A stretch of 20,756 bases of DNA from a virus. Shown here one piece after another: positions 2,408-20,458 of this stretch (within the stretch, counting starts at the first letter, position 1; each line of letters opens with the position of its first letter). The notes beneath the pieces were generated by a model. That model saw only the letters and a program-made list of their open reading frames with translations, had not been told where the DNA came from and did no database searches. The stretch spans positions 1 through 20,756 of the IMG/VR virus record IMGVR_UViG_3300037485_000489; one strand, given 5' to 3'. The translations under genes and the position numbers were made by a program.

Positions 2408-2442
2408 ACTGAGATCTAACTCAGTTAACTAAATACTGAGTT
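2408..2442 (-). promoter_or_regulatory. Overlapping alternative hairpins at a gene end
   Basis: AACTCAG (2418-2424) pairs perfectly with CTGAGTT (2436-2442). ACTGAG (2408-2413) pairs perfectly with CTCAGT (2420-2425). The two stems share the middle arm and exclude each other. The first contains the last codons and stop of the gene at 2425-2622. The arrangement is terminator- or attenuator-like, but no U-tract follows. Confidence 0.35.
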
Positions 2443-2622
2443 TCTTATTGATTCTAATTCTGTCACAAAGAATCCATTATCTATCTCTTCTTCAGTATAT
2501 TCAATATCTTCTGCAAAACTAGAATAACAGTATTCTGTCATATATTGCAGTAATTCTTCTTTAGATAGATCTTTAAGATTATTGATATAAAGTTCTGTTT
2601 TAATTAAATTCATCATAGTCAT
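2425..2622 (-). CDS. Small acidic hypothetical protein (65 aa)
   Basis: Starts at ATG 2622 (MTMMNL; in-frame ATGs follow at once, so the exact start is uncertain) and stops with TAA at 2425. The product is acidic, with a DIEYTEEEIDNG stretch at about residues 39-50 and a DLSKEELLQYM helix before it. It is the first leftward gene beyond the divergent intergenic region, 14 nt from promoter copy E. Function unknown; small acidic proteins in phage early regions are often host-directed inhibitors, but nothing specific shows that here. Confidence 0.68.
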   Translation of the reverse strand: MTMMNLIKTELYINNLKDLSKEELLQYMTEYCYSSFAEDIEYTEEEIDNGFFVTELESIRNSVFS

Positions 2623-2635
2623 ATTATTTTAAGTT

Positions 2636-2675
2636 CATATATATTATCATAATCATCTCGTATTCACTCTGTAAA
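2636..2675 (-). promoter_or_regulatory. Early promoter element, copy E
   Basis: Minus-strand TTTACA, TACGAG and TATGATAATATATATG at the standard spacing. The 20-nt repeat TGCTATACGCGTTGCTATAC (2676-2695) directly abuts it upstream. It is the rightmost leftward promoter. Confidence 0.68.
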
Positions 2676-2695
2676 TGCTATACGCGTTGCTATAC
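2676..2695. repeat. 20-nt repeat, copy 2 (paired TGCTATAC boxes)
   Basis: Identical to 1007-1026; two TGCTATAC boxes spaced 12 nt apart start to start, touching promoter copy E. Candidate operator. Confidence 0.6.
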
Positions 2696-2698
2696 GCA

Positions 2699-3400
2699 AC
2701 CGCTCCGCGTGTCGCTCCGCTCCGTGTATCGTAATACGATTCGAGCACACGACTCGGGTCACCGATCCAATCCGATCCGATCCGTACAACCAGATCGAAC
2801 CTCAACACGATTCGACACCGATCCGTACGATTCGTAAACCGAACCTCGACCACACGACACGTAACACGACCAAACCAAACCGTATACATACACGATACGT
2901 AATACGATTCGGTCCAGCACGGAGACACGACACAACCCGACTCGACCCTGATTCGATACACCAACCAACAGACTCGGCTACGACTCGACACCAACGTATA
3001 CGACACAGACCAGACTCGAGTACACGACACAGACCAGACCGGTCGACACTCGACACGACACAACACCAAGTCATAACATTCGTACGACATTATATCATAA
3101 CAAACATACGGATCGGTACGACTCGACACAGCACAGACACACGACACAGCCGTAACCCGATCGCTCGACACTATCTACGATTCGTAACACGACACGACAC
3201 AGCAGCCGACTCGGCACACCGCACCGCACCGCACACCAGCACAGCACGTGCTACGGTTCCCGAACGAATTCCCAAAAGTTCTGCCGTACCGGACATGCGA
3301 CCCGAACCAACCGACCCATGCATACGAAACTTGGGGGACCCGGCGAAACGAAAACCGTTTTCCTTTTCGAGCGGGCAGCCGAAAAATAGTGCATAGCCCC
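2699..3400. other. Anomalous GC-richer low-complexity intergenic block
   Basis: The + strand is dominated by short words such as CGACAC, CGATTCG, GATCCG, ACACGAC and ACCGCACC, very unlike the AT-rich genes on either side. CGTAATACGATTCG occurs twice (about 2730 and 2897), CGACACAGACCAGAC twice (3001-3015 and about 3025), and GATTCG at least six times. All three minus-strand frames are long and open here because the minus strand is G/T-rich and poor in stop triplets; the predicted products (Arg/Val/Ser/Cys-rich) do not look like proteins. With the tract that follows, it separates the leftward from the rightward genes. Candidate origin or packaging/control region; no function is shown. Confidence 0.5.
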
Positions 3401-3486
3401 TTCCTTATATATTTGTCATAACGTTTTTTAAATTCCCCTATATTGATATTTTTTTTCAAAAAATTTTTTACAATATTTTTTTTAGA
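3401..3486. other. Very AT-rich tract, possible DNA unwinding element
   Basis: Long T and A runs (for example TTTTTTTTCAAAAAATTTTTT at about 3449-3469) follow the GC-richer block and precede stem-loop copy 2. Such an AT-rich tract next to repeats is typical of origins, but it could be a simple promoter-flanking spacer. Confidence 0.35.
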
Positions 3487-3489
3487 AGT

Positions 3490-3533
3490 GTGACGTTAGG
3501 TTGTTATATTAATAAATAGCAGGCTAATGTCAC
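3490..3533. repeat. Conserved stem-loop, copy 2
   Basis: GTGACGTTAGG (3490-3500) faces GCTAATGTCAC (3523-3533) with AATAAATAGCAG in the loop, matching copy 1 at 1199-1242 in order and spacing. Compared with copy 1, a T-G pair becomes T-A and an A-C mismatch becomes a G-T wobble, so pairing is kept or improved. It sits about 57 nt before the first rightward gene. Confidence 0.6.
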
Positions 3534-3555
3534 GTTGTAAGATTTGAGTGATGTA

Positions 3556-3580
3556 CGTGATTGTATATACTATATAAAAC
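3556..3580 (+). promoter_or_regulatory. Candidate late promoter
   Basis: CGTGATTGTATATACTATAT followed by AAAAC, ending 9 nt before the ATG at 3590. It resembles GGTGATATATAACTTATAT before groEL (10862) and CGTGATATATATATTA before 14568. Confidence 0.4.
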
Positions 3581-3589
3581 AGATTAATT

Positions 3590-4102
3590 ATGGCCTTTCA
3601 ATTAAAATCTCAAACACCAATAAAGCAAACTTATAAAGAAGACACTTCTAGGTTTGAGAATTTTGATATTAAGAATGATACTTTAATTAAAGGTAACTCT
3701 ATGGATTTGCCTACTTCTAGAAAAATTATGGTATTTAATTCGCGTAATATGGTGGATGGATACAAGGACGAAAAAACGTTTAAGGAAAAAGACGGAACAT
3801 ATTCAACTATGCGTTCTTATAAGAAAAAGCCCGCCCCAAAGCAAGTTGAGTCTCCTTTATTAAAACAAAAATTATCTCCTAAGGCCGCTAAGGCTAAAGC
3901 AGCGAGAGATCTTGCTTATGCTAAGACGGATGATAGAACGGCGAAGAAGGCGCACTCCCAAAGAATGCATCGTAAAAACCCTGGTAATAAAGGTATGGAC
4001 TATGACCATGAAGATGGTAGATTTGAATCTGTAAAACAAAACAGGGGTAACGAGGGTGAAGGTACTAAGAAAGAAAGTGGTAAAAAATATAAAACAAAAT
4101 AA
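3590..4102 (+). CDS. Lys-rich hypothetical phage protein (170 aa)
   Basis: The first gene of the rightward block, starting ATGGCC at 3590 after a candidate late promoter. The N-terminal half (to about residue 75) is mixed. The C-terminal half is very basic and looks disordered, with KKKPAPKQ at about 78-85, KAAKAKAARDLAYAK at about 99-113 and a closing KKESGKKYKTK. That composition suits a nucleic-acid-associated or packaged internal virion protein, but no domain is recognised. Tail-type genes follow 17 nt downstream. Confidence 0.72.
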   Translation: MAFQLKSQTPIKQTYKEDTSRFENFDIKNDTLIKGNSMDLPTSRKIMVFNSRNMVDGYKDEKTFKEKDGTYSTMRSYKKKPAPKQVESPLLKQKLSPKAAKAKAARDLAYAKTDDRTAKKAHSQRMHRKNPGNKGMDYDHEDGRFESVKQNRGNEGEGTKKESGKKYKTK

Positions 4103-7170: not shown

Positions 7171-9156
7171 ATGGCAATAATATATAGTTACCCAATAAAT
7201 ACAAATATACTAGCAACCGATATAATAGTTGGGTCTAGTACTGTTATTGTTGGGGGTAGACCAAAAAATCAAACAAAAAGTTTTAAGATTTTAGATCTTA
7301 CAGCATACTTTGCTTCGGTGCTAGTGCCTCCTGGTTCTTATGTTCCATATACAGGCGCAATTGGATCGGTAAATTTAGGAGTATATAGTTTAACAGCGGG
7401 GTCTATTATAAAAGCAGGTGGAACAAACCTTCAGTTTTTAATGGCAGACGGTTCTGTAAGTACAGCTCCTTCTTTAGCTGGGTTTGTCCCGTACGTGGGG
7501 GCAACTCAAGCAGTAGACCTAGGTGCTCAAGATCTTTATACAACAGGTCAAATAAGTACAACTGATTTTGTTGCCGGAAACGACATTTATGTAGGTAGTT
7601 TAACATCTGCAATAAGAGTAGGTAGAGGTCCGGGAAATAATAGTAAAAGTACTGTCCTTGGAGATTTAGCACTTAGTTCAGTTACTACAGGAGATGCCAA
7701 TACTGCTATAGGTGTTACAGCTTTACAAGTTACAACTTCAGGAAATGGGAATACTGCTATCGGAGCTCAAGTTTTAATAGTAAATACTACAGGTGCTTTA
7801 AATACAGCTGTAGGAAGTCAGGCTTTAAGAAATAATCTTGTAGGCAATAGAAATACTGCTATTGGAAATAATTCTCTTACTCTTAATACAGCAGATGATA
7901 ACACAGCAGTTGGATACAACTCGTTATTATCAAATACATCAGGAGCAAATAACGTAGCTATTGGTGTAGATTCTTTAAAGACAAATACAACTGGTCTTAG
8001 AAATACCGCTATAGGTACTTCCGCTTTACTTGCTTCAACTACAGCAAATGATAACGTAGCAATCGGTTCGGAAGCATTACAATCTAATACAGCCTCGAAT
8101 ACTGTAGGTGTTGGTTATCAATCATTAAAAAATAATACGGGAGCTGAAAATACAGCACTTGGGTATATATCTTTAAAAACAAATACAACCGGAGGACAAA
8201 ACACAGCGGTAGGGCGTGCTGCTTTAGCTGGAAATACCACAGGGTCTTCAAATACAGCGATCGGGAGAGCTACGCTAGGCGCAAATACAATAGGAATAAA
8301 CAACGTAGGAATAGGTGTTAATGCGCTTTTTGCAAATTCAACAACTAGTTACAATATTGGTATCGGAGTTAATGCTTTATTAGGTCCAGGAAATAATGGT
8401 ACTATAGGTATTGGATATGAGGCCGGTGCAAATAGTCCTATTGGTTTTAATACAAACTCTTTTAACTCTGTTTTTATAGGTAATCAAACTAAACCAGCGG
8501 GGAATGGAGAAACTAATCAAATTGTCATAGGAGATGTAGCTGTTGGAGCAGGATCAAACACCGTTACTTTAGGTAATACATTAATAACAACAACTAGGTT
8601 AAGAGGAGCGGTACGAGGAGGATCATTTGTAAAAGACAGTGGAACATCTTCTCAATACTTAATGGCAGATGGAACAACAACTACTGCAATAAAATCTACA
8701 TATATGATGACTGGTGTTTTCACCAATATGTTTGGAGGAGATCCAGGAGGTAATAGTAAAGATGTATTAGAATGGGTTGCAAGTACACCAAACTCAAGTC
8801 ATTCCTCAGCATTACCTATATTACAAAACTGTAGAATTACTGCAGCTGGATTTAAGTGGATTAGCTCAACGCCAATTGGAACAATTAATCCAGGAGACAG
8901 TTGGACAGTACAAGTATTAAAAATGACGAATCCACTAACAGATTCTACTACAGCTGATGGAAACTTTACTTTTCTAGGAAATCTAAATATAACATTGACT
9001 TCCGCAAACACAGGAACTACCCCTGGGGTGTTTTCGTCAGGTTTAAATGTTGTTTTAAACGCAGGAGATATTATAAGAATTGCAGGGATTGAAACAGGAA
9101 CTATTGCAGTATCAACAGAAGAAGCACAATTAACAGTATTATTTGAAGTTATTTAA
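7171..9156 (+). CDS. Large fibre/adhesin with YadA-head-like repeats
   Basis: A 661-residue protein. Residues 1-48 form the anchor module shared with the gene at 6837. Residues about 57-130 contain two copies of a VPY-TGA-VNLG / VPY-VGA-VDLG motif, the first followed by GGTNLQFLMADGS. From about 165 to 425 there are about a dozen degenerate 20-24 residue repeats of the NTAIG-AL-NTTG type, typical of the left-handed beta-roll heads of trimeric adhesins such as YadA. A second SFVKDSGTSSQYLMADGT piece lies at about 495-512, then a C-terminal beta domain. No S74-type chaperone domain is seen. Probable trimeric receptor-binding fibre. Confidence 0.75.
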   Translation: MAIIYSYPINTNILATDIIVGSSTVIVGGRPKNQTKSFKILDLTAYFASVLVPPGSYVPYTGAIGSVNLGVYSLTAGSIIKAGGTNLQFLMADGSVSTAPSLAGFVPYVGATQAVDLGAQDLYTTGQISTTDFVAGNDIYVGSLTSAIRVGRGPGNNSKSTVLGDLALSSVTTGDANTAIGVTALQVTTSGNGNTAIGAQVLIVNTTGALNTAVGSQALRNNLVGNRNTAIGNNSLTLNTADDNTAVGYNSLLSNTSGANNVAIGVDSLKTNTTGLRNTAIGTSALLASTTANDNVAIGSEALQSNTASNTVGVGYQSLKNNTGAENTALGYISLKTNTTGGQNTAVGRAALAGNTTGSSNTAIGRATLGANTIGINNVGIGVNALFANSTTSYNIGIGVNALLGPGNNGTIGIGYEAGANSPIGFNTNSFNSVFIGNQTKPAGNGETNQIVIGDVAVGAGSNTVTLGNTLITTTRLRGAVRGGSFVKDSGTSSQYLMADGTTTTAIKSTYMMTGVFTNMFGGDPGGNSKDVLEWVASTPNSSHSSALPILQNCRITAAGFKWISSTPIGTINPGDSWTVQVLKMTNPLTDSTTADGNFTFLGNLNITLTSANTGTTPGVFSSGLNVVLNAGDIIRIAGIETGTIAVSTEEAQLTVLFEVI

Positions 9157-10900: not shown

Positions 10901-12448
10901 ATGTCTGACGGAATCGTTAAAAATTTAAGCTTTGGTAAAGAGGCAAGCGACAAAGTATTTATAGGTATAGAGAAACTAGCAAAAGCAGTTGGATCTACAC
11001 TTGGAGCTAGTGGTAAGTGCGTTTTACTAGAGGATGGAGCAGGTAATCCTGTTATAACAAAAGATGGTGTAACTGTAGCAGATTCAATTATTCTTTTAGA
11101 TCCTGTTGAAAATATGGGGGCTACACTTTTAAAAGAAGCTGCAAGAAAAACAGTAAGAGAAGCCGGTGACGGAACCACCACCGCTACGGTATTAGCACAT
11201 GCAATTTTAAGTGAAGCTTATAAATTTCCTGAAGCCAATACCAGAAAAGTAAAAGAAGGAATCGAGGCAATGTGCGACAAAGTTGTAGATTACCTAGAAA
11301 AAATAAAAATACCCGTAACAGGTGATATGATTGATCATGTTGCAACTATATCAACTAATAATGATCCTGATTTAGGAAAACTAGTTGGTGATGCATTTAG
11401 ATCAGTTGGAGAGACAGGTGTTGTTATGATGGAAACATCTAATGACCCCGAATGTAGTTTAGAAATTGTAGAGGGAGTACAATATGGGAAAGGATTAACT
11501 AATAGTCATTTTGTAACAAACCCGCAAAAGAAAACGGCAGAACTTGATAACCCTTTGGTTTTATTAATTGAATCACCAATTGATACAATTAGACAGATAC
11601 AACCAGCGTTAGAGTATGTTATAAAAAACAACAAGCCTTTATTAATTATAGCTGATTTAGACACAAGTGTGCTTTCGGCATTAGCAATGAATAAAGTAAA
11701 AGGAAATATAAAAGTTAACGTCATTAATGCGCCTACTTACGGAATTAGTAAAAAAGAAGTTTTAGACGATCTTGCTTTATTAACCGGTGCAATTATAATA
11801 AATGAAGACTTAGGAGATGATATGGATATATTTGATCCAGGTGTTTTTGGAACATGCTTAAAAAGCATAACTTCCCACGAGGACACTATACTGCATGTTA
11901 AAGAGCCTTCTGAAGAAATATTAACCATTATAGAAGATTTAAAAAAATCTTTATTAGAAAATAATCCTGCTCATACCGTTGTAAGACTTGAAAAAAGATT
12001 AGCTAGACTAGCCGCTAAAATTGCGGTTGTAAAAGTTGGTGCTAATTCGAGTATAGAATTAAAAGAAAAAGCTGACAGAATAGAAGACGCAATATGCGCA
12101 ACAAAAGCAGCTATTAAAGAAGGCATTGTTCCTGGAGGCGGAATTGCTTTATTAAATGCGTCTCATAATATAGATTCTTTTGGCGATGGTCAAGCAATCT
12201 TACTAGATGCTATTAGAGCACCATTCAAATTAATATTAGATAACGCGGGGATTGAATTTGCTCCATTAGAAACAATATCTAAAAATGGTTATGGATTAAA
12301 CGTAGTAACAGGTAAAACTGTTGATATGATAAAGGCAGGAATTATTGATCCTTTATTAGTAACAAAAAGCGCATTAAGAAATGCGGTATCAGTAGCCACA
12401 ACAATATTGTCTACTAATTGTGTAATCAATAATTTGAGAATACAATGA
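10901..12448 (+). CDS. groEL: Phage chaperonin, GroEL family
   Basis: A 515-residue group I chaperonin subunit covering equatorial, intermediate and apical domains. Nucleotide-binding motifs are present: TKDG (53-56), GDGTTTATV (89-97), RIEDA with the likely catalytic Asp at about 396 (equivalent to E. coli Asp398) and EGIVPGGGIALL (about 407-418). It is shorter than cellular GroEL (about 548) and lacks the C-terminal GGM repeat tail. Sequence is clearly diverged, and base composition matches its phage neighbours, so it is not a recent host import. The 3' end overlaps groES by 4 nt (ATGA). It probably folds capsid or tail proteins, alone or mixed with host GroES. Confidence 0.9.
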   Translation: MSDGIVKNLSFGKEASDKVFIGIEKLAKAVGSTLGASGKCVLLEDGAGNPVITKDGVTVADSIILLDPVENMGATLLKEAARKTVREAGDGTTTATVLAHAILSEAYKFPEANTRKVKEGIEAMCDKVVDYLEKIKIPVTGDMIDHVATISTNNDPDLGKLVGDAFRSVGETGVVMMETSNDPECSLEIVEGVQYGKGLTNSHFVTNPQKKTAELDNPLVLLIESPIDTIRQIQPALEYVIKNNKPLLIIADLDTSVLSALAMNKVKGNIKVNVINAPTYGISKKEVLDDLALLTGAIIINEDLGDDMDIFDPGVFGTCLKSITSHEDTILHVKEPSEEILTIIEDLKKSLLENNPAHTVVRLEKRLARLAAKIAVVKVGANSSIELKEKADRIEDAICATKAAIKEGIVPGGGIALLNASHNIDSFGDGQAILLDAIRAPFKLILDNAGIEFAPLETISKNGYGLNVVTGKTVDMIKAGIIDPLLVTKSALRNAVSVATTILSTNCVINNLRIQ

Positions 12449-12705
12449 AAGCAATAGGTAGAAACTTAGTTATAAAGAAAACAAAAGAAGGTACAACCAC
12501 TACAAAAGGTGGATTGATGCTTGCTGAAAATCAAAGAGATGATATTAGATATATTGAAGCAACAATAGTATCACTTGGCGACGAGGTAGTAGGTATAAAA
12601 GAAACAGATACTATATTTTATGACCGTCATGCGGGACATAAAATTGAGATAGGTAAAGAAACATATCACGTTATAAAGTTATCCGATATTGTAATTGTTT
12701 TGTAA
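12445..12705 (+). CDS. groES: Phage co-chaperonin, GroES family
   Basis: An 86-residue GroES-type protein overlapping the groEL stop by 4 nt. It has the family layout: an opening strand RNLVIKK, a mobile loop at about residues 12-32 (TKEGTTTTKGGLMLAENQ) in which LML would take the place of the GroES IVL contact triad, then VSLGDE, a middle DTIFYDRHAG and the closing YHVIKLSDIVIVL. The length is slightly below bacterial GroES (about 95). It would cap the phage GroEL, with which it is translationally coupled. Its stop overlaps the next ATG by one base. Confidence 0.85.
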   Translation: MKAIGRNLVIKKTKEGTTTTKGGLMLAENQRDDIRYIEATIVSLGDEVVGIKETDTIFYDRHAGHKIEIGKETYHVIKLSDIVIVL

Positions 12706-16819: not shown

Positions 16820-16892
16820 AGCAGGTGGGAGGTAAGGTATCTCACGGGTCTCATAAGCCCGCTTAAACTGGTTCGACTCCAGTACGTTGCTA
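16820..16892 (+). tRNA. tRNA-like gene, anticodon CAU, bulged acceptor stem
   Basis: Read by hand: acceptor AGCAGGT, GG, D arm GAGG/TCTC around TAAGGTA (G18G19 present), A26, anticodon stem CGGGT/GCCCG with loop CTCATAA (anticodon CAU), variable CTTAA, T arm ACTGG/CCAGT with loop TTCGACT, then ACGTTGCT and discriminator A. The 3' acceptor strand is 8 nt and needs one bulged G. Position 14 is T, not A. CCA is not encoded. It could be an elongator Met, an Ile tRNA needing lysidine, or a decayed tRNA; the initiator GGG:CCC pattern is offset by one pair. Confidence 0.72.
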
Positions 16893-18028: not shown

Positions 18029-18233
18029 AGAAGCAATCTTAGATAATGGTGAAGATGATTTAGCGGCAGACAAATTAAAAAACGCTGCAGCTACAAAAAA
18101 ACTAGCCATATTTGATGCATTTGAAATACTTACAAGAATAGAACTTGAAGAGCGTATAATATCAGATGAAGAAACCGCAAAAGACAATACTCAAAAGGTA
18201 TTTAAAGGATTTGCAGAAGGGAGATCTAAATAA
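17952..18233 (+). CDS. Small helical protein upstream of terL, small-terminase candidate
   Basis: A 93-residue helical protein starting MNIKETKLNIIQAGHKAVLE inside the preceding gene (77-nt overlap; no later Met start exists). It contains LIKVAEEAILDNGEDDLAAD and KLKNAAATKKLAIFDAFEIL, then an acidic end. Its stop TAA overlaps the terL ATG by one base. From memory the KNAAATKKLAIFDAFEIL segment is conserved in related phages. The position directly before terL fits a small terminase or packaging accessory, but no helix-turn-helix is evident. Confidence 0.6.
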   Translation: MNIKETKLNIIQAGHKAVLELIKVAEEAILDNGEDDLAADKLKNAAATKKLAIFDAFEILTRIELEERIISDEETAKDNTQKVFKGFAEGRSK

Positions 18234-20458
18234 TGTACGAACAAAATTTATTTAGGGTAATCCCGGACCATATAAAAACATCGGTAATTAAACAACAAAA
18301 CCGATACAATAAATGGAAATATGGTTATAACAAAGAACACGATGTTATTGTTATAAGCAAAACCGGTAAGATTGGAGAGATATACGAAATACAAAACTTA
18401 AAAGTTGCTTTACCATTAGCGGAAGAATCTTATTCGAGATCTAATAAAAAAGAAGAGCAATATTGGGAAAGAATAGACTATCCAAAAGAATTAGAAAAAA
18501 TAAAGAATGTATTTGATTGGAATAAATACCCGGATCATTTTAAAGAGCATTGGTACGATTATGTAGATAATGAATTTAAAAGAAGAGACGAAGGTGTATT
18601 TTTTAATAACAACGGTGTTTCTACTTATATAACCGGTACTCATTATATGTATTTGCAATGGAGTAAGATTGACGTTGGTGCTCCAGATTTTAGAGAATCA
18701 AATAGATTATTCTTTATATTTTGGGAAGCTTGTAAAGCAGATACTAGATGTTATGGAATGTGTTATTTAAAAAATAGACGTTCTGGATTTTCATTTATGT
18801 CTTCAGCAGAGTTAGTTAATCAAGCAACAATATCAAGTGATTCAAGATTTGGTATATTATCTAAATCAGGATCAGATGCTAAAACGATGTTTACCGATAA
18901 AGTTGTACCTATATCAATTAATTACCCTTTCTTTTTTAAACCTATCCAAGATGGTATGGATAGACCTAAAACAGAATTAGCTTATAGAATCCCTGCCTCT
19001 AAATTTACTAGAAGAAAATTAGATAATAGTGATTCCCCAGAAGAACTTGAAGGATTAGACACAACAATTGACTGGAAGAATACAGGTGATAACTCATATG
19101 ATGGGGAAAAACTAAAACTTCTTGTTCATGACGAGAGTGGTAAATGGCTAAGGCCAGACAATATATTAAACAACTGGCGCGTTACAAAAACGTGTTTACG
19201 ATTAGGTAGTCGTATTATTGGTAAGTGTATGATGGGTTCAACCTCAAATGCTTTAGATAAAGGAGGAGACAATTTTAAAAAACTTTACTACGATTCAGAT
19301 GTTACGAAAAGAAACCGCAATGGACAGACTAGCTCAGGATTATATAGTTTGTTCATACCTATGGAATGGTCGTACGAAGGATTCATTGATACTTATGGCA
19401 TACCTGTCTTCGACACTCCAAAAAAACCCATAAAAGGTGTTGATGGGAATGAAATAGAATACGGTGTTATTGAGCATTGGCAAAACGAAGTTGATGGCTT
19501 AAAAGCAGATCAAGACGGTTTAAATGAATACTATCGCCAATTTCCACGAACAGAACAACACGCTTTTAGAGACGAAGCAAAACAATCCCTATTTAATTTA
19601 ACAAAAATATACGAGCAAATAGATTATAATGATGATCTAAGAAACTCAGGTGTGTTAACAAGAGGTAGCTTTCAATGGGCTGGCGGGATACAAGATACCA
19701 CTGTAGATTTTTACCCAAACAAAGACGGTAGATTTTTAATTTCGTGGGTACCACCTAAACATCTCCAAAACCGTGTGATAATAAAGAATGGGTTGAAGAG
19801 TCCAGGCAACGAGCACTGCGGAGCATTTGGCTGTGATAGTTATGATATATCAGGAACAGTAGATGCGAGTAGAGGTTCCAATGGAGCTTTGCATGGATTA
19901 ACTAAGTTCTCAATGGAGGATGTACCTCCTAATCAATTTTTTTTAGAATATATTGCAAGACCTCAAACGGCTGAAATATTTTTTGAAGAAGTATTAATGG
20001 CTTTAGTATTTTATGGAATGCCTATATTGGCAGAAAATAATAAACCAAGATTACTTTACTATTTAAAGAGAAGAGGCTATAGAGGCTATTCAATTAATAG
20101 ACCAGATAAGATTTGGAATAAGTTATCGCCAGCTGAAAAAGAAATTGGGGGAATACCAAACTCATCACAAGATATAATGCAGGCTCATGCCTCCGCTATA
20201 GAAACTTATATTGAAAACAATGTAGGTTTTACAAATGGATCATATGGTAATATATACTTCCAACGTACATTAGAAGATTGGGCTAGATTTAATATAAACA
20301 ATAGAACGAAGCATGATGCTTCTATAAGTTCGGGGTTAGCTATTATGGCTTGTAACAAACATATGTATACACCAACAACCCCTTATGAAAAACCCAAATT
20401 TGAATTAGGATTTAAGAGATATAATAATAGTGGACATAATTCACAAATAATACAATAA
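18233..20458 (+). CDS. terL: Terminase large subunit
   Basis: A 741-residue packaging motor. ATPase: the Walker A equivalent is KNRRSGFSF (about 180-188), a deviant loop without the usual GK(S/T), as in many Bacteroidota phage terminases. Walker B is LLVHDE with catalytic Glu at about 301, and MMGSTSN (about 333-339) is the coupling motif. Nuclease (RNase H-like fold): acidic residues D535/D538 in FGCDSYD, VDASRGSNG after it, E601 in PILAENNKPR and D647 in QDIMQAH. Preceded by TGTHYMYLQWSKI (about 134-146), a motif I recall from crAss-like TerL. It would cut and translocate DNA into the prohead through the portal encoded next. Confidence 0.9.
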   Translation: MYEQNLFRVIPDHIKTSVIKQQNRYNKWKYGYNKEHDVIVISKTGKIGEIYEIQNLKVALPLAEESYSRSNKKEEQYWERIDYPKELEKIKNVFDWNKYPDHFKEHWYDYVDNEFKRRDEGVFFNNNGVSTYITGTHYMYLQWSKIDVGAPDFRESNRLFFIFWEACKADTRCYGMCYLKNRRSGFSFMSSAELVNQATISSDSRFGILSKSGSDAKTMFTDKVVPISINYPFFFKPIQDGMDRPKTELAYRIPASKFTRRKLDNSDSPEELEGLDTTIDWKNTGDNSYDGEKLKLLVHDESGKWLRPDNILNNWRVTKTCLRLGSRIIGKCMMGSTSNALDKGGDNFKKLYYDSDVTKRNRNGQTSSGLYSLFIPMEWSYEGFIDTYGIPVFDTPKKPIKGVDGNEIEYGVIEHWQNEVDGLKADQDGLNEYYRQFPRTEQHAFRDEAKQSLFNLTKIYEQIDYNDDLRNSGVLTRGSFQWAGGIQDTTVDFYPNKDGRFLISWVPPKHLQNRVIIKNGLKSPGNEHCGAFGCDSYDISGTVDASRGSNGALHGLTKFSMEDVPPNQFFLEYIARPQTAEIFFEEVLMALVFYGMPILAENNKPRLLYYLKRRGYRGYSINRPDKIWNKLSPAEKEIGGIPNSSQDIMQAHASAIETYIENNVGFTNGSYGNIYFQRTLEDWARFNINNRTKHDASISSGLAIMACNKHMYTPTTPYEKPKFELGFKRYNNSGHNSQIIQ

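Follow-up and report, generated by a model that had tools for sequence, protein, structure and literature searches.

Divergent control regions between early and late genes are well known in tailed phages. Examples are the immunity and origin regions of lambda-like phages, and the crAss-like phages, whose genes lie in two opposed blocks. In an unrelated virus, too, a control region lies between divergent early and late genes, and contains promoters and the replication origin. The locus considered here resembles the tailed-phage regions: it is non-coding, two opposed gene sets set out from it, and predicted promoters stand on both sides. However, the familiar regions are made of conserved operators and promoters, whereas the predicted promoters here are separated by as much as 620 bp of low-complexity DNA, hypervariable and with a texture that recurs.

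The locus lies in an IMG/VR virus record, linear and 20,756 bases long, which was analysed at its full length and is called the window below. Its right part carries phage genes: TerL (18233-20458, phrog_6681), GroEL (10901-12448), GroES, an endolysin, and tail and other structural proteins. The TerL shares 63% identity with its counterpart in podovirus ctfjg026 (MW202828) and 44% with that of Flavobacterium phage elemo; TerL proteins of Cellulophaga, Maribacter, and Tenacibaculum phages are more distant matches (31-39% identity for the Cellulophaga and Tenacibaculum phages, Pachyviridae and kin). This kinship makes a member of the Flavobacteriia the probable host. By terL homology and the phrog_6681 match, the virus appears to be an uncultivated podophage-like relative of Elemovirus and the Pachyviridae. 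The complete relative G004 codes for a protein with sigma-70 region 2, a primase-helicase of the TOPRIM/DnaB type, an annealing protein of the Erf kind, and an exonuclease. GroEL and GroES adjoin in the rightward region (10901-12705, plus strand); in an elemo phage, the GroEL/GroES pair is oriented opposite to the neighbouring genes. Between two ORFs at 16821-16891 (plus strand) lies a tRNA-like match to RF00005, which at 26.8 bits falls below the gathering score of 29; ARAGORN finds no tRNA there.

An earlier note on this DNA had singled out an anomalous low-complexity block of CGA- and CAC-type words where leftward genes give way to rightward ones. Both the block and its position stand. The ORF map of the window, like those of five complete relatives, shows the leftward and rightward gene sets pointing away from the block on both sides. 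A scan of 4-mer content on the plus strand bounds the block at 2692-3383 and finds no comparable stretch elsewhere in the window; the variable part is a C/A-rich, G+C-enriched spacer at about 2692-3340. Its 4-mer entropy, at z = -21.9 against mononucleotide shuffles, is the most extreme of the window. The base counts over 2687-3340 are C 231, A 205, G 122, and T 96, and the same interval holds 14 copies of CGACAC, nine of ACACGAC, and five each of CGATTCG and CGACTCG. G+C content is 0.53, against values of 0.3-0.4 typical of this AT-rich genome, a contrast that had also been pointed out. Runs of A or T are few, as the note had observed: AAAA or TTTT occurs once (21.5 expected), and TTT, ATT, TTG, and TTA are strongly depleted. 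The partial promoter word TAnnTT is found twice (15.4 expected), and the full TAnnTTTG once (1.2 expected). The depletion therefore concerns AT-rich words generally. Purine-pyrimidine alternation, measured throughout in 150-base windows (genome mean about 0.48-0.49, SD about 0.05), reaches its window maximum, 0.70, at the block. The direct repeats that had been described are present as short ones, but they do not form a head-to-tail array: TRF run over the block gives a single two-copy match (3214-3247).

The block is non-coding. Coding had been called implausible at the outset, and it was rejected here: stops interrupt most or all of the reading frames in the blocks of most relatives, indel sizes are not divisible by three, and the block has no family match, Pfam included. 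The accompanying statement that all three minus frames are open was mistaken, however. In 2687-3340 these frames contain 6, 1, and 3 stops, and the sole stop-free frame is a plus frame. Z-DNA was also set aside for this window, where better tracts lie elsewhere (as judged by an energy table). In some relatives (G024, MW202828) the block does contain long alternating tracts that are the best of the genome.

The first leftward ORF (2425-2622, minus strand) encodes 65 aa of unassigned function, with no PHROG match and no significant Pfam match. Relatives of this ORF, 94% and 64% identical, likewise adjoin the control region. Beside it lies motif P, TTACA-N7-TACGA-N7-TTGATAATATANATG (2622-2675, minus strand; core about 2640-2673). 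Six copies of P stand before leftward ORFs in the window, and 98 copies of modal spacing in 14 records give the consensus TTACA-N7-tACGA-N7-TTGATAATATAnATG. This recurrence suggests that P is a phage promoter, reading leftward, and the sigma-70-like factor that a complete relative encodes for itself is in keeping with this. In one relative (L139:900-1010), a promoter-like unit, ATATATATCTAACAA, is tandemly repeated several times. Next to P, at 2677-2695, a GCTATACGCGTTGCTATAC repeat followed by CGCTCCGC words forms the left edge of the block. A longer pattern around this repeat was found in 23 viral stretches. In the window, the repeat has an exact second copy at 1008.

On the right, the block is bordered by a conserved control element of about 130 bp (3293-3430, plus strand), identified by alignment and a hidden Markov model, which contains GGGGGACCCGG, AAAACCGTTTTCCTTTT, ATAGCCCCTT, and TATATATTTG. 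The model was built from 21 hand-picked seeds, which match by construction. It matches the window, one of those seeds, at 3305-3426 (E 3.5e-24), and 65 of 78 relatives at E<1e-3. Within the element lies TATATTTG (3408-3415, plus strand), which fits the Bacteroidetes -7 promoter consensus TAnnTTTG. It is the sole plus-strand TAnnTTTG in 2601-3600 and is conserved in the alignment of relatives; we propose it as the rightward promoter. Judged by their sequences, the predicted promoters would point outward, P on one side and TAnnTTTG on the other. The earlier note had placed A/T runs after the block. They are indeed present, starting near 3400, but the conserved element (about 3293-3430) lies before them as a separate entity. 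The A/T tract proper, TTTTTTTTCAAAAAATTTTTTACAATATTTTTTTT (3449-3484, with AAAAAATTTTTT at 3458), is found again in many relatives. The first rightward ORF (3590-4102, plus strand) encodes 170 aa, the C-terminal part of which matches phrog_6437, a family of unknown function.

Between the A/T tract and this ORF, in the proposed 5' leader, lies a 42-bp dyad, TGTGACGTTAG...AGGCTAATGTCAC (3490-3531), recovered by pattern search. In an alignment of 50 copies, covariation in the dyad stem does not rise above that of shuffles, so the dyad is probably a DNA site. A second copy, 80% identical to the main one, lies at 1199-1240, immediately beyond the 3' end of the leftward ORF at 1248-1481, and is followed by a T run. 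Many relatives have one or two extra copies 1.2-3 kb left of the main one. The second copy may be a terminator, an operator, or a recombination site.

The earlier note had suggested comparing the same locus in relatives. With the first rightward ORF (3590-4102) as query, 78 viral loci were fetched, and a special non-coding element does recur at the same place. These loci share a plan. From the left, the P of the last leftward promoter is followed by a GCTATACGCG..CGCTCCGC stretch and the low-complexity block; then come the element of about 130 bp, ending in TATATTTG or TATATCTG, the A/T tract (in many), the 42-bp dyad, and the rightward gene. The block is real and not an assembly fluke. Its sequence differs between relatives while the flanks stay conserved. 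The distance from P to the right-hand element, in loci where both ends are clear, ranges from about 50 to 620 bp, with the window among the longest; one locus, L112, has almost no block, with the remainder of the control region intact. In 11 close pairs, the right-hand 130 bp are 86-98% identical without a single indel, and the adjoining block differs by between 0 and 5 indel events, with as many as 156 bases in gaps. The block gaps between L128 and L131, for example, are 1, 16, 1, 41, 5, and 20 bases, of which 16, 41, 5, and 20 are not multiples of three. L219 and L220, another pair, are 95-98% identical across the block and right element but carry different genes to either side, which suggests that genes were replaced around the control region as a whole. 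Recombination specific to the block was accordingly rejected, as this exchange spans the control region and not the block alone. A DNA-level search of phages and plasmids returned only short, insignificant phage matches and no plasmid matches.

A texture is often seen again in the relatives' blocks: enriched G+C, few A/T runs, and high purine-pyrimidine alternation. In four of the five complete relatives, the genome-wide maximum of alternation falls at the block (G024, 0.85; G010, 0.75; G022, 0.77; G032, 0.79), and in the fifth, G004, it ties with others for the top value (0.64). The block of MW202828 likewise holds the maximum, 0.90, in the 42-kb part examined. Among the 74 loci with enough upstream sequence, some of which share a contig and so are not independent genomes, 51 have their alternation maximum no more than 700 bases upstream of the right element. 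For about a third it lies elsewhere. Since the block is missing from some loci, part of the clade can do without it. Words too are held in common. CAC, ACG, CGC, CGT, and ACA occur in 24-25 of 26 blocks, and TTT, ATT, TTG, and CTT are depleted. Strand bias is less constant: C exceeds G on the plus strand in most relatives, and the C/A bias is common but not general, being flipped in L255, MW202828, and L146. The L255 block is G/T-rich, although the first leftward genes of L255 and the window are 94% identical. The suggestion that the composition is actively maintained thus survives for the texture, which many relatives display; it does not hold for the sequence, nor for a strand bias common to all.

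Any explanation has to account for the position of the block, the anatomy of its conserved flanks, its variable length, its change by indels, and its recurring texture. We favour the reading of the block as a spacer, expandable and poor in promoters, that separates the leftward and rightward promoters of a bidirectional control region, and give this an even chance. A purely neutral tract grown by slippage would look similar. Such a tract would be a recombination- and slippage-prone stretch, seeded by CGCTCCGC and GCTATACGCG words and tolerated because nothing important lies there. The strong indel variation among close relatives, the dispensability of the block in L112, and the words and strand bias that shift with lineage are all as expected of it. 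Against it, the texture returns at one site in many relatives, and usually nowhere else, despite an AT-rich background genome; we consider neutrality unlikely, though a serious rival. It is possible, if doubtful, that the clade keeps a G+C-enriched, alternating tract poor in A/T runs for its physical action (as a supercoil sink, a promoter-free insulator, or a loading zone for replication proteins), while letters, length, and strand bias turn over fast. The earlier note had also thought of a replication origin. Replication would then begin at the block, the conserved element, and the A/T tract, with the tract as unwinding element and the block's texture serving helicase or primase loading. In all five complete relatives, the minimum of cumulative GC skew falls in or beside the 2-kb bin of the block, the conserved tract at 3449-3484 is A/T-rich as an unwinding stretch should be, and G004 has its primase-helicase. 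But the skew turns where gene direction does, and the two arms differ in length (in G004, about 44 kb against 20 kb); transcription may therefore be what the skew reflects. Moreover, no conserved iteron or repeated initiator site was found in blocks whose words vary among relatives, nor was an initiator gene found beside the block. An array of T7-type primase sites (GTC; GAC on the other strand) was rejected as well: GACAC, with 16 copies, is striking in the window, yet GAC is enriched in only four of the 26 blocks, those of the window and three others. An origin here, the main rival, is unlikely, although the skew minimum leaves it some room.

The remaining proposals fare worse. A packaging start (pac) or a physical genome end within the block would fit the distribution of contig ends: 34 of 61 contigs shorter than 60 kb stop no more than 1.5 kb from the adjacent gene, on the side facing the block (4.7 expected), and none of the 61 does so on the opposite side. 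Yet these ends are scattered over more than 1 kb and mark no single site. Several relatives of 61-68 kb are closed maps that hold the block internally, with 127-base end overlaps resembling an assembly k-mer length; terL, at 18233, is about 15 kb from the block, and no terminase genes adjoin it. No fixed end or cut site, such as a cos or pac site would have, was apparent. The literature examined yielded no genome-end data for this phage group. The contig breaks are better read as assembly failure at a hypervariable, low-complexity stretch than as genome ends, and packaging, suggested early on, is very improbable. The block might instead be transcribed, either as a C-rich, G-poor, rut-like region for Rho loading or as a structured RNA. 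This would suit the excess of C over G on the plus strand of most relatives, and folding of single sequences, compared with just 20 shuffles, gives z of about -2.7 to -2.9 for both strands. Against it stand the flips of strand bias in L255, MW202828, and L146, and the two proposed promoters, both of which point away from the block. Rfam has no match in the block, only sub-threshold matches elsewhere in the window; the conserved element beside it has no consensus RNA structure, the dyad shows no covariation, and the block is itself too divergent to align. Conserved RNA structure, and with it the structured-RNA locus first imagined, is not supported, and a transcribed RNA element of either kind is scarcely credible.

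Under the spacer reading, then, the block region would be the bidirectional control region of an AT-rich podophage that probably infects Flavobacteriia. Leftward transcription, presumably of the early or replication side, would start from P (2622-2675), and rightward transcription, presumably of the structural side, from the TATATTTG promoter at 3408. The block between them would remain untranscribed. It would lengthen and shorten through short indels, of the kind that replication slippage or illegitimate recombination produces, and selection would mainly preserve texture: an elevated G+C content, a scarcity of A/T runs and of AT-rich promoter-like words, and frequent purine-pyrimidine alternation. 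Such DNA should be poor in spurious start sites, and might serve as a spacer or insulator between the two promoters, letting each fire separately and absorbing the negative supercoiling left by divergent transcription.

If this proves true, the block would be a clear natural example, at the main switch of a widespread aquatic phage group, of non-coding DNA whose bulk texture rather than sequence is under selection, and the frequent assembly breaks of these phages at the block would be accounted for. Motif P and the right-hand element would in addition offer a way into the transcription programme of these phages, none of which is in culture.

Divergent control regions between early and late genes are an established class. 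Keyword searches of the part of the literature that was searchable gave no account of one with a hypervariable spacer retained for texture, which is weak evidence. Among named phages, elemo has, at a comparable gene switch, about 1 kb in which all annotated ORFs are tiny. Alternation in the part of elemo examined peaks within this region (0.64), which is AT-rich, unlike the block. The model of the right-hand element finds nothing convincing in elemo or phi19:3. A likeness is also seen in Podoviridae sp. ctfjg026, from Manatee Spring (MW202828), where low-complexity sequence forms a block of about 240 bp close to the switch between gene sets (8302-8538 of the locus L002). There, however, the block is G/T-rich on the strand examined, where the window is C/A-rich, and the flanking element is not recognisably the same. 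Small ORFs are annotated near and over the MW202828 block; the one that overlaps it (L002:8285-8608) is probably spurious. The non-coding control region of the unrelated virus mentioned at the outset shares hypervariability with the block. In that virus, the variation consists of rearrangements of defined protein-binding blocks; here, it consists of low-complexity words.
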